From Gemmatimonadota bacterium (GTDB lineage: Bacteria > JAAXHH01), in NCBI GenBank assembly GCA_009838645.1, contig VXRC01000036.1, positions 1-32,710 on the forward strand: DNA of 32,710 nucleotides, in the 5' to 3' direction. Positions within the stretch are counted from its first letter, which is position 1. Each line of letters starts with the position of its first letter. This document shows, piece by piece, positions 4,354-23,249 of the stretch. The notes beneath the pieces are model-generated. The model saw only the letters and a program-made list of their open reading frames with translations. It searched no databases and was not told the origin of the DNA. Both the position numbers and the translations under genes were made by a program.

Positions 4354-4989
4354 CTAACCCGGTTCCACCTTCCAGAAACTGAATACAATGGACAAGGCTA
4401 CGGGCATCCACTGGATGTTCCGGTCGTTGAACGCGCGAATGTACCGGACGTCCAGCGCCAGGCCGACCGTGGACGTCATCGGCACATGCACGCCGCCGCC
4501 GATGAGGATGCTGAATGAAGTCTCTGTACTGAACGCGGTCAGCTTCGTGCCGCGTACGGTACCGAAGAACCGGTCGATTGCCCTGGAGTAGCCGATGCCG
4601 CCCAACCCGTATACGGCCGCGGGGGAAGTGGAGGTTTTGTACATCAACCCGAAGTTGGCGCCTTCCAGGCTCACGTTGGCATCCACGTGCGGACCAAGTC
4701 GCTGCAGCGCATCGTCACTCAAGCGGTCCCGGTCGTGTTGGCCCCGTTTGACGGAAAAGAGGTTGTCATAGCCGTTGAACGCGAGATGAACGGACTCGGA
4801 AACGCGTACCGTCATCCCCAGGAGGAACAGGGATCCTCTGGTCTTTCCGTCCGCAAAACCGCCTGAAGGAATACTCCTTCCGCCACCCAGGCTGATCGAC
4901 ATGCGCTTTTCGGGGACCTGGGCGAATCCCTTGCCGGTTGCCGACAACGAGACTGCGGTAGCCAGAAGGATTAAGACGATCTTCTTCAT
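4354..4989 (-). CDS. outer-membrane beta-barrel protein
   Basis: 211 residues. MKKIVLILLATAVSLSATGKGFA is a textbook Sec signal peptide, with predicted cleavage after the Ala before QVPEK. The rest alternates short hydrophobic strands with Gly-rich turns (SISLGGGRSIPSGG, GLGGIGYSRA, ILIGGGVHVPM, GLALDVRYIRAF). It ends in a strand rich in aromatic residues (SIVFSFWKVEPG), typical of small OmpX/OmpW-like barrels of about eight strands. The start was placed at the signal-peptide Met, since the longer frame adds only charged residues and runs into the 3' end of the helicase gene. It lies 25 bases after lhr and is probably read from the same transcript. No specific function can be assigned. Confidence 0.8.
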   Translation of the reverse strand: MKKIVLILLATAVSLSATGKGFAQVPEKRMSISLGGGRSIPSGGFADGKTRGSLFLLGMTVRVSESVHLAFNGYDNLFSVKRGQHDRDRLSDDALQRLGPHVDANVSLEGANFGLMYKTSTSPAAVYGLGGIGYSRAIDRFFGTVRGTKLTAFSTETSFSILIGGGVHVPMTSTVGLALDVRYIRAFNDRNIQWMPVALSIVFSFWKVEPG

Positions 4990-16941: not shown

Positions 16942-20345
<3,404 letters not shown>

Positions 20346-20346
<1 letters not shown>

Positions 20347-21845
20347 CATTCCACCCGGCCCTGGACGTACCAGCGGCCGCTCCCGTGGTCGTAGTAGACC
20401 CAGAGGGTTTCGCCCCGCGCGGTGTCGACGAAACGGTAATCCCTCCGGACCTCCCGGACCCACCATCCGCCGCTGACCAGGTGTTCCGGGGGCGGGCCGG
20501 GCGGGCCGGGGCCCGAAGGCGCCTGCCAGTTCACGGGCTGGCCTTCCAGGAGCCGGGGACTGGCGTGGGCGCGGCGTACCAGGGCGCGTACGGCCACCGG
20601 CCGGGGGGTGGCCGCGGCGAGCTTGCCGAAGGGCTGCCACCCGAAACGGGCTTCCGGGAGATGCCCCGACGCCAGTTGCGCCGTGAGGACCGAACCGGGG
20701 CCGAACTCGGCCCGGACCCGCGCCAGGGCCCGCATGGCCGAGCCGGTGTCGCGGTCCGGATTCTCCTGCAGGAGGTTCAGCTTGTCGGCGGTGACGGGCA
20801 CGCCCTCCACCTCGAGGGCCAGCTCCACCGGGGGGAAGGGGAAGGAAATCGTTTCCAGGCGCAGGCCCACCAGCTCCAGCAGGACCCTGGCGTCCAGCGT
20901 CGGTTCGGCCGCCTGGACCCGGCAGCGGTGGCGCGTGCCGTTCTCCTGCCGGAACGCCAGCCGGAGGGCGGCGGCCGCCTGGTATCTCTCGCCCGCGGCC
21001 TTCAGCAGGGGCGCCAATAGCTGGGACACCCGGAACTGGAGGCCCCGGGCGTCCGATTCGTTCGCGTCCAGTTCCATCCGGGCGCGGAGCGGTTCGGAAA
21101 GGCCCCGCGGCTGAAGCGGCAGGGACCGGTCTCCCGCCGCGAAGCGGTAGAGGGCCCGGGCCTGCTCGCCGAGATGCCGGGCGATCCGCTCCCCGGGAAG
21201 GGCCAGGAAATCCCCCACGGTATACACGGCCAGCTTGTCCAGCCGTTCCCGCAGCTTCGGCTCGAGTTGCAGATCGAGCAGCCGCACCTTTCGGCTTTCG
21301 GCATCCTCGGCCTCCATGGTGGGGAGCACGACCACCGCGTCCCTCGCTTTGGCGACGGCATAGGTGCCGAAGCGGCTAAAACCGACCGCGATGCTCGCTG
21401 GCAGTTCCAGCCCGGAGAGGGCGGCGTGCATCTGCCCGGCCCAGTCCTCCAGCGACGCGTAGAGCCGGTCCAGTCCCCCCGCGTCCACCCAGAAGATCCC
21501 CGGCTCCTCCGCGCTCGGCTCCACCCGGGGGCTGAAACGGTCCAGCGCGCCGTGGACCTGCCTGACCGCCGCCCCCACCTCCTCCTCCGAAACCGTCCCG
21601 GCGCACAGGCCGCGGTCCAGGGAGAGGGCCGCGGCGTACTTCATGCCCGGACGGATCCCGCCCTTGACGGCCGCGGCGTTGAGCCACAGGATGGGGCTCA
21701 GGGGCTTATCCTCTTCCACCACCGCCACCGGCCGTTCCCGCCACTGCGGATGGCTCCTCAGCAGGAGCCGGAGCGGCAACGCCCGGATGTTAATGCAGGC
21801 CGTCCGGCCCGCGGCAGATTTCGGTGTGGCGCCAGCCCGGTCCAT
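20346..21845 (-). CDS. imuB: ImuB, catalytically degenerate Y-family polymerase
   Basis: 499 residues, usual ImuB length. The Y-family fold is recognisable: [14 protein letters not shown] at the N-terminus, [14 protein letters not shown] in the palm, [17 protein letters not shown], and the helix-hairpin-helix [19 protein letters not shown] (about 213-232). The first catalytic Asp expected near the N-terminus is replaced (INI where an active Y-polymerase has D-x-D). Family knowledge says ImuB is inactive and serves as the clamp-binding hub that recruits DnaE2 and ImuA. The C-terminal [16 protein letters not shown] ending is typical. It starts inside the imuA 3' end (56-base overlap); no other nearby Met fits. 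Confidence 0.93.
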
Positions 21846-22440
21846 GACATTTGTCCTTCAGGATTTCGACTTCGCATTGAAAACGGTCCACCGCCAGGCG
21901 GCGGCAGGAGGTCTGGCCCCTCAGGGTGACCATCGGCCCCAGCGAAGGCGCCTCGCGGGACTTGGCGGTCAGGCACAGGAGGGCGGCATGGTGGTCCCGC
22001 GCCTGCCGGGCCAGGCGCACCTGCAGGGGCACGGGGATCCTGGAATCGGCGTGCAGGTCCATCACCACCAGGCCGAAGCCGCCCGAACGCAGGACCCGAT
22101 CCGCCGCCCGCGCCGCGGCCCGGGCGTCCGGTACGCGGATGACCACCAGGGCGTCCAGGTCCACGCCGCTCTCCGCCGCGTCCGGCGCGAAGAAGGTGTC
22201 CGGCGTCGCCGTGATCCAGGCCGCCGGCTCACCCTCGAGCTGGGCGTCCAGCACCAGCCGGAAGGCGGCCGTCAGCAGGGCGGCCCCGGGGACGGACGAG
22301 AGCTCGCAGAGGCGCCCGGCCAAATGCGACCGCGACCAGCGCGGCCGCTCCTCCCGCTTTCCGGCGGGCATCCGCGTGAAATAGGGTTCGAGATCCTGCA
22401 GATCCCGGTCCTGCAGATCCCGATCCTGCAGGGACGACAT
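21790..22440 (-). CDS. imuA: ImuA, RecA-like mutasome protein with degenerate Walker A
   Basis: 216 residues. The ImuA pattern is clear: ELSSVPGAALLTAAFRL where RecA has its Walker A loop, then AAWITATPDTFFAPDAAESGVDLDALVVIRVP, and RSGGFGLVVMDLHA. The loop lacks the Gly-Lys-Thr/Ser of a working Walker A, as expected for a RecA-fold partner that does not act as a standard ATPase here (inference). ImuA helps ImuB and DnaE2 in translesion synthesis. AAGGA sits seven bases before the ATG. The first 18 residues carry an LQDRD repeat from 15-base DNA units. It follows lexA by 77 bases and overlaps imuB. Confidence 0.9.
   Translation of the reverse strand: MSSLQDRDLQDRDLQDLEPYFTRMPAGKREERPRWSRSHLAGRLCELSSVPGAALLTAAFRLVLDAQLEGEPAAWITATPDTFFAPDAAESGVDLDALVVIRVPDARAAARAADRVLRSGGFGLVVMDLHADSRIPVPLQVRLARQARDHHAALLCLTAKSREAPSLGPMVTLRGQTSCRRLAVDRFQCEVEILKDKCHGPGWRHTEICRGPDGLH
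22396..22432. repeat. 15-base tandem repeat at the start of imuA
   Basis: CTGCAGATCCCGGTC and CTGCAGATCCCGATC, plus a partial third CTGCAGG, form in-frame units that encode the LQDRD repeat at the N-terminus of ImuA. Each unit contains a PstI-like CTGCAG core. Confidence 0.9.
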
Positions 22441-22456
22441 GACGATTCCTTCTGCT

Positions 22457-22488
22457 GTGCGATGTGCGATGTGTGCGATGTGTGCGAT
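22457..22488. repeat. GTGCGAT tandem repeats between lexA and imuA
   Basis: Four copies of GTGCGAT with periods of 7, 9 and 9 bases fill most of the 77-base gap between the lexA stop and the imuA ribosome-binding site. It is a simple-sequence tract placed in the leader of imuA, so length changes could alter its translation or messenger stability; that is speculation. Confidence 0.85.
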
Positions 22489-22517
22489 GTGTTACTCGAC
22501 GCGCCGGGCTGGCCGTC

Positions 22518-23132
22518 CTATTCAACGGTCCGCCGTATCTCGATGACCTTGCCCAGCAGCGAAAAGGGCGCGCCGTCCTCCCGGGGGATGATCGGGTCGA
22601 AGGCCTCGTTCTCCGGATGCAGCTCGACGCGGCCGTCCCGCTCCCGGTACCGCTTGACCGTCGCCTCGTCGCCCACCAGGGCCACCACGATGTCCCCCGG
22701 ACTGGCCGTCGGCTGCCGGCGCACGATCACCATGTCCCCCGGCAGGATGCCGGCATGAAGCATGCTCTCCCCCTCCACGGTCAGGGCGAAAAGCTCATCG
22801 TCGTCGAAACGCGTCTGCACCATGATGTATTCCGGCGGATCCTCCATGGCCTCGGTCAGCTCGCCCGCCTGTACGCGCCCCAGCATGGCGATCAACTGGG
22901 TGGGACTGGCCTTGCCGAACTCCGGCAGCCGGTAACCCCGGGACCTGCCGTCCACCTTGGCGAGCTTTCCCTCGAACACCAACTTCTCCAGGTGCTGGCG
23001 GGCGGACTGGACCGCACGGAACCCGAATGCGCGCTGCACGTCCCGGGTCGTGGGCGGGGTCCCGCTCAAGATCCGCTCCCGCACGAAATCGTAGATCTTC
23101 TCCCTGGTCTTCCCAGGCGATGTGTAGGCCAT
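22518..23132 (-). CDS. lexA: LexA SOS repressor
   Basis: 204 residues. An N-terminal winged helix (about 5-70; PPTTRDVQRAFGF is the helix-turn-helix) is followed by the self-cleavage site Ala89-Gly90 in VQAGEL. The catalytic Ser123 is in VEGESMLHAGI and Lys160 in DEATVKRY, so the S24 peptidase dyad is intact. LexA represses damage genes until RecA filaments trigger its cleavage. GAGGAG lies six bases before the ATG. The gene heads a lexA-imuA-imuB-dnaE2 operon, a known SOS mutagenesis arrangement, and its own promoter carries a perfect palindrome in the spacer, indicating autoregulation. Confidence 0.96.
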   Translation of the reverse strand: MAYTSPGKTREKIYDFVRERILSGTPPTTRDVQRAFGFRAVQSARQHLEKLVFEGKLAKVDGRSRGYRLPEFGKASPTQLIAMLGRVQAGELTEAMEDPPEYIMVQTRFDDDELFALTVEGESMLHAGILPGDMVIVRRQPTASPGDIVVALVGDEATVKRYRERDGRVELHPENEAFDPIIPREDGAPFSLLGKVIEIRRTVE

Positions 23133-23220
23133 GATGGTCTCCTCGCGATCCGGGGATGAGGAAAACGGGGCGGCGCGTCAAAACGCACCGAATCGCGCCA
23201 AAATGAGCGCCTGAAAATCC

Positions 23221-23249
23221 ATAAAACAGACATTTGTCTGTTATGTCAA
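23221..23249 (-). promoter_or_regulatory. promoter of lexA-imuA-imuB-dnaE2
   Basis: On the minus strand TTGACA (plus 23244-23249) is followed after exactly 17 bases by TTTTAT (plus 23221-23226). Transcription would start near 23214, about 80 bases before the lexA start codon. The spacer is filled by a palindrome. Confidence 0.75.
23225..23242. promoter_or_regulatory. probable LexA box of this lineage
   Basis: AACAGACATTTGTCTGTT is a perfect inverted repeat with 8-base arms and a 2-base centre, lying between the -35 and -10 boxes of the lexA promoter. Position, symmetry and the downstream gene make it the LexA operator almost by definition. The sequence differs from the enterobacterial CTGT-N8-ACAG and the Gram-positive GAAC-N4-GTTC types as I know them. 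Confidence 0.75.

Follow-up and report, generated by a model that had tools for sequence, protein, structure and literature searches.

A palindrome in the promoter of a lexA-imuA-imuB-dnaE2 operon of Gemmatimonadota, the predicted operator of a second LexA

The lexA2-imuA-imuB-dnaE2 operon and its promoter

The window analysed in this work (a stretch of 32,710 nucleotides from a Gemmatimonadota bacterium, contig VXRC01000036.1) carries on its minus strand a gene for a LexA protein, LexA2, with imuA, imuB and dnaE2 lying downstream of it on the same strand (Table 1). Both domains of LexA2 scored over the Pfam cut-off (PF01726 LexA_DNA_bind, E=9.7e-8; PF00717 Peptidase_S24, E=1.7e-27), and the protein matched the E. 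coli LexA structures (3jso) at 1e-26. The cleavage site and the two dyad residues were invariant across 45 LexA2 sequences, and by its domains, cleavage site and dyad LexA2 would classify as a canonical S24 LexA repressor. The longest open reading frame of dnaE2 spans 16942-20640; the likely ATG, placed by the overlap of the reading frames, is at about 20349 and overlaps the imuB stop. The junction between lexA2 and imuA contains tandem repeats of TGTGCGATG (3.3 copies, 22456-22492), and the 15-mer AGATCCCGATCCTGC, which codes for DRDLQ in ImuA, is repeated 2.1 times at 22400-22431; the copy number of both repeats differs among sister genomes. Directly upstream of the lexA2 promoter there is an open reading frame for a HicB-like antitoxin (PF15919, 23360-23683, minus strand).

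Table 1. Features of the operon and of its promoter in the window
Feature	Position	Strand	Description
-35 element of lexA2 promoter	23244..23249	-	TTGACA, perfect
LexA2 operator (predicted)	23225..23242	-	AACAGACA-AA-TGTCTGTT; core CAGAC-N4-GTCTG at 23227-23240
-10 element of lexA2 promoter	23221..23226	-	TTTTAT, adjoins the operator; weak, 4/6 consensus, without A at position 2
lexA2 (P0001, 204 aa)	22518..23132	-	winged HTH, A89-G90 cleavage site, S123/K160 dyad
imuA	21790..22440	-	weak RecA-like Pfam match; homologues come after lexA2 in other cassettes
imuB (Y-family, IMS domain)	20346..21845	-	Pfam
dnaE2/imuC error-prone DNA polymerase	16942..20349	-	Pfam DNA_pol3_alpha, finger, PHP, HHH_6

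The plus strand reads ATAAAACAGACATTTGTCTGTTATGTCAA at 23221-23249. In the sense of lexA2, i.e. on the minus strand from 23249 to 23221, this is TTGACA-TAACAGACAAATGTCTG-TTTTAT with a 17-base spacer, in agreement with an earlier note on this DNA, which had described such a promoter upstream of lexA. The same note had spoken of a perfect 18-base palindrome in the spacer. The palindrome does fill the spacer, but it falls short of perfection: in AACAGACATTTGTCTGTT (23225-23242) eight complementary pairs flank a central TT, which is not self-complementary, and 16 of the 18 bases are symmetric. The promoter was absent from those listed by a sigma-70 scan of the window, because its -10 element is weak. 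The ATG of lexA2 follows about 92 bp past the promoter site and is preceded by a GGAGA ribosome site. When the window was scanned with the 16-mer palindrome pattern, allowing up to three mismatches, a single match was found, with no mismatch; 0.52 matches are expected at such laxness. A pattern search of the 3.8-Mb genome yielded no further palindrome site with fewer than two mismatches.

Conservation in the genus and a second LexA

The phylum was sampled with 16 genomes, 12 from the window's genus and 4 from other genera; nearly all genomes compared in this work are metagenome bins. Each of the 12 genus genomes contained exactly one exact copy of the 14-mer CAGACANNTGTCTG, always just upstream of lexA2. 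The core CAGAC-N4-GTCTG was identical in all of them, and the -10 element was TTTTAT in 11 and TTTTTT in one. The box and its -35/-10 frame were nearly invariant, the leader behind them differed in length and sequence, and the start of the box lay 104-195 bp ahead of the lexA2 ATG. This genus-wide conservation before lexA2 is stronger evidence for the site than its rarity. Sites with one mismatch to CAGACANNTGTCTG located away from lexA2 numbered 24 in the 12 genomes and 21 in the reversed-pattern control, i.e. there was no excess. With one exact site per genome in all 12, the LexA2 regulon would, as in P. putida, comprise its own operon alone; in the genome of the window it is, judging from these searches, effectively the lexA2-imuA-imuB-dnaE2 operon only. 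The leader between box and ATG contains imperfect GCGCCGGCCCRTTTC-like repeats, and its length is very variable in sister genomes (L013, L016 and L020 compared with 23133-23220 of the window).

The palindrome was also sought at recA of the 12 genus genomes, where it was absent and another box was present. This absence led to a second LexA protein, LexA1 (G000:C37:4768-5355), which is about 35-38% identical to LexA2. LexA1 was present in all 16 phylum genomes. LexA2 was present in all 12 genomes of the genus and was not found in the 4 from other genera, its occurrence within the phylum being confined to the genus; imuB was likewise present in 12/12 genus genomes, and had no good match in the other 4. 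The arrangement corresponds to that of P. putida in that a second lexA heads imuA-imuB-dnaE2 alongside a separate lexA1.

LexA1's own box, CTAACCnnATGTTnnGTA, is unlike the LexA2 palindrome. The lexA1 promoter contains TTGACGACTAACCGTATGTTGTGTATAAT, whose conservation extends to other families of the order; the lexA1 box was present wherever a lexA1 promoter of the phylum was readable. In all 12 genus genomes the recA promoter carried TTGACACTACACAAATGTTTGGCATATT, which is related to the lexA1 box. The consensus of the two, CTAnnCnnWTGTTnnGyA, lies inside TTGAC...TATAAT (L120, G000:C37 ~4655-4690; recA L188-L199) and is, on the evidence of lexA1 and recA, the likely housekeeping LexA box of the phylum; we found no description of it in the literature. 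The predicted LexA2 binding sequence CAGACANNTGTCTG differs from the lexA1/recA box, which is again the situation of P. putida. A genome-wide scan for LexA1 sites gave three-mismatch matches at numbers not above control, a dinB-like gene (L330) was without a LexA1 box, there was no recognisable SOS gene near a LexA1 box lookalike at G000:C24:35130, and the window held no good match to the LexA1 box.

The earlier note had considered that the palindrome may be the LexA box of the phylum, and had proposed to look for it near recA, uvrA and further repair genes, and upstream of lexA in relatives. This idea did not hold: since the lexA1 and recA promoters carry CTAnnCnnWTGTTnnGyA, the SOS box of the phylum would be this sequence and not the palindrome, the genomes of the other genera have no LexA2, and away from lexA2 the sites stayed at control level. 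Upstream of lexA in relatives, the palindrome stood before lexA2 throughout the genus, and the other box lay in lexA1 promoters.

LexA2 and its box in other phyla

Genomes outside the phylum were searched with a LexA2 profile, and relatives with E <1e-70 were found in G132, G064, G324, G234, G407, G441 and in roughly two dozen genomes belonging to G040's phylum, which was sampled with 80 genomes; some relatives with a long hinge insert match the profile in two pieces. In a tree made without the annotated Proteobacterial LexA2 proteins, the LexA2 proteins formed one clade (support 100/100) apart from every housekeeping LexA in the tree, and most members of the clade head lexA2-imuA-imuB-dnaE2 sets. 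On plasmids there was no close LexA2, all being below 60% identity. The LexA2 proteins of the genus form one clade, whose place among the phyla is poorly resolved in the tree, so both transfer and loss are in play; we consider gain of the cassette by transfer likelier than loss in the sister genera.

The same box was found upstream of LexA2 orthologues that are about 55-62% identical, in G040 and many genomes of its phylum, in G132 and in G324, and 10/10 core matches stand ahead of most LexA2 homologues in other phyla. As the exact box occurs in the window's own phylum, in those of G040 and G132, and in G324, which is outside the lists of these three, it is present in at least four phyla. The supposition of the earlier note that the box is specific to one lineage must be abandoned, as it follows a mutasome LexA clade through these phyla. 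In 35 of 45 LexA2 promoters the core is preceded by TTG at a distance of 8 or 9 bases (the other 10 were without such a core in the pattern used), thus the box, where present, fills the promoter spacer. Housekeeping LexA proteins differ widely across phyla, and the CAGACA box tracks LexA2, not LexA1.

In the 80 genomes of G040's phylum there were 23 exact sites as compared to 7 for the reversed pattern; 19 of the 23 lay before or inside mutasome gene sets (lexA2, imuA, imuB, dnaE2) and 4 elsewhere. The strongest single test of the operator reading is provided by broken-up cassettes. In G217 lexA2-imuA, imuB and dnaE2 lie apart, with dnaE2 1.6 Mb from lexA2; a box precedes each of the three, at distances of about 30, 100 and 150 bp from the matched reading frame, respectively. 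In G218 imuB, located 1.5 Mb from lexA2, also has its own box. The motif goes along with displaced target genes, which argues for an operator. G183 and G185 have a second CAGACANNTGTCTG in the interval from lexA2 to imuA (L282 8443, L283 3891), and G186 has a box before imuA (L284 1167), which suggests internal LexA2-controlled promoters. Four exact boxes, in G189, G193, G208 and G211 (L285, L286, L287, L288), have no mutasome gene in the stretches of surrounding DNA that were inspected; their number is at control level.

The DNA-contacting residues of E. coli LexA are S39, N41, A42, E44 and E45 (PMC3091678); in an alignment without gaps over the recognition helix their LexA2 equivalents are A40, Q42, S43, R45 and Q46. 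Helix and operator were compared for 34 LexA2 sequences, with the window's genus entered once. At least 9/10 of CAGAC-N4-GTCTG was present before the gene in 24 of the 28 cases with A40-V41, and in none of the 6 with another residue pair at 40-41 (Fisher p=1.6e-4, not corrected for phylogeny). The four exceptions with an AV helix were L212 (8/10), L219 (none), and L309 and L310 (changed palindromes). LexA2 proteins with an SV helix had other palindromes at the same place, namely GTGAAC/GTACAC in G064, CCATAC/GTATGG in G464 and CCACAC/GTATGG in G150; CAGTC/GACTG was found there with the AY helix of G407, and the hybrid CCAGAC/GTATGG with the AV helix of G234. These data are suggestive of an altered recognition helix going with an altered palindrome, the independent changes being few and the phylum tree poorly resolved.

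Proposed function and relation to known LexA systems

We think it very probable that the palindrome is the operator of the LexA2 encoded directly downstream, and that LexA2 represses itself and imuA-imuB-dnaE2 until DNA damage occurs. What the sequences offer for this is the site, its position in the promoter, its conservation, the fact that it goes exclusively with mutasome genes, and a second LexA with a different box. That a LexA operator lies in the promoter of this operon, as the earlier note had assumed, is strongly supported by the conservation and by the boxes of the dispersed cassettes. A LexA2 dimer would occupy the operator between -35 and -10 and would repress lexA2 and imuA-imuB-dnaE2 because it blocks RNA polymerase at the promoter; recA itself is apparently under LexA1. 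Upon DNA damage, RecA filaments would trigger self-cleavage of LexA2 at A89-G90 by S123/K160, the operator would become free and the error-prone mutasome would be made, until newly made LexA2 shut the mutasome operon off again. Binding, repression, cleavage and induction of the LexA2 system would proceed by analogy with the LexA family, and sensitivity of LexA2 to RecA may be presumed from the conserved catalytic residues.

It could be argued that the palindrome serves the phylum as its general SOS box, by which one LexA acts on recA, uvrA and other repair genes. The site is indeed of the LexA type, and SOS control is usual for lexA cassettes; but for recA this is refuted by the other box in its promoter, there is no genome-wide excess of sites, every genome of the phylum has a second LexA, with its own box wherever the promoter is readable, and the four genomes of other genera have neither LexA2 nor imuB. 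We regard this explanation as extremely unlikely. If the palindrome were bound by the housekeeping LexA1, alone or with LexA2, the cassette would be an ordinary member of the LexA1 regulon. Cross-talk is conceivable, since both boxes lie within a promoter spacer and both LexA proteins are in the cell, but the different box of LexA1, which has no good match in the window, and the association of the CAGACA box with LexA2 rather than LexA1 across phyla make this very improbable. An unrelated repressor or an RNA hairpin is conceivable for any palindrome. This one is upstream of the expected transcription start and is therefore not expected in the mRNA. It accompanies LexA2 and mutasome promoters also in genomes with dispersed genes, and it co-varies with the LexA2 recognition helix, leaving either possibility a negligible probability.

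Two LexA regulons with separate binding sequences are known from P. putida and Xanthomonas, and LexA2 of P. putida governs lexA2-imuA-imuB-imuC (PMC9578287, PMC3901139, PMC5261740; for the LexA2 regulon, Abella 2007 and Yang 2002, as cited in PMC9578287). LexA2 systems private to the cassette are already known from Pseudomonas putida, and the LexA2 described here is, by its sequence context, similar to those of P. putida and Xanthomonas in that a second LexA heads the mutasome operon, would repress its own unit, and has a box distinct from that of the main LexA. For its operator, P. putida LexA2 uses a sequence other than CAGAC-N4-GTCTG. Unlike in the P. putida/Xanthomonas system, the operator here is CAGAC-N4-GTCTG, the LexA2 clade spans uncultured phyla, and the box accompanies imuB and dnaE2 where these are dispersed. 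Regulation of imuABC cassettes by LexA is persistent, and in some cases the cassette is the sole LexA target (PMC3323433).

The Gram-positive (Cheo/DinR) LexA box, CGAAC-N4-GTTCG (PMC9578287), resembles the palindrome in its symmetry, AC-N4-GT core and placement in the promoter, but its half-site is GAAC instead of AGAC, and the LexA2 helix AVQSARQH is unlike the Gram-positive SSTVHGHL type. LexA of E. coli is homologous to LexA2 and shares with it the cleavage site and the catalytic dyad, but the contact residues differ and its SOS box is CTGT-N8-ACAG. Against these two boxes, the remark of the earlier note that the motif is unlike the classic ones proved correct. Bacteroidetes have diverged LexA paralogues with new palindromes (PMC8565304). 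They share with LexA2 the duplication of an SOS repressor with operator drift and the predicted palindromes before the regulator's own gene, but they make up a LexA-like family that is non-canonical and has a different DNA-binding domain, whereas here a canonical LexA is tied to imuABC.

A count made in 2021 arrived at seventeen LexA motifs (PMC8565304). CAGAC-N4-GTCTG was not among the LexA motifs quoted in the openly accessible papers compared here, the full lists being in subscription papers outside this comparison; the operator class, the multi-phylum range and the helix/operator co-variation appear to be new, i.e. undescribed in the searchable literature. Radical changes of LexA operators in the course of evolution are known, and duplication of lexA is the proposed route (PMC8565304). 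Here one genus shows both states together, with LexA1 as the housekeeping repressor predicted for recA and LexA2 as one predicted for the mutasome only. The multi-phylum LexA2 set, with its matched helix/operator variants, opens the specificity switch to direct testing. Control of the mutagenic polymerase would be separable from the remaining SOS functions in these little-studied phyla.

A wider reading, which we find equally easy to accept and to doubt, is that the cassette is a self-contained, horizontally mobile mutasome with its own repressor-operator pair, which is present in several phyla, is insulated from the SOS boxes of its hosts, and whose helix and operator have readably co-evolved. 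If this is true, the LexA2 clade would be a natural series of matched LexA specificity variants, in which A40-V41 would go with GAC half-sites, S40-V41 with TAC or AAC (G064, G150, G464), and A40-Y41 with GTC (G407).
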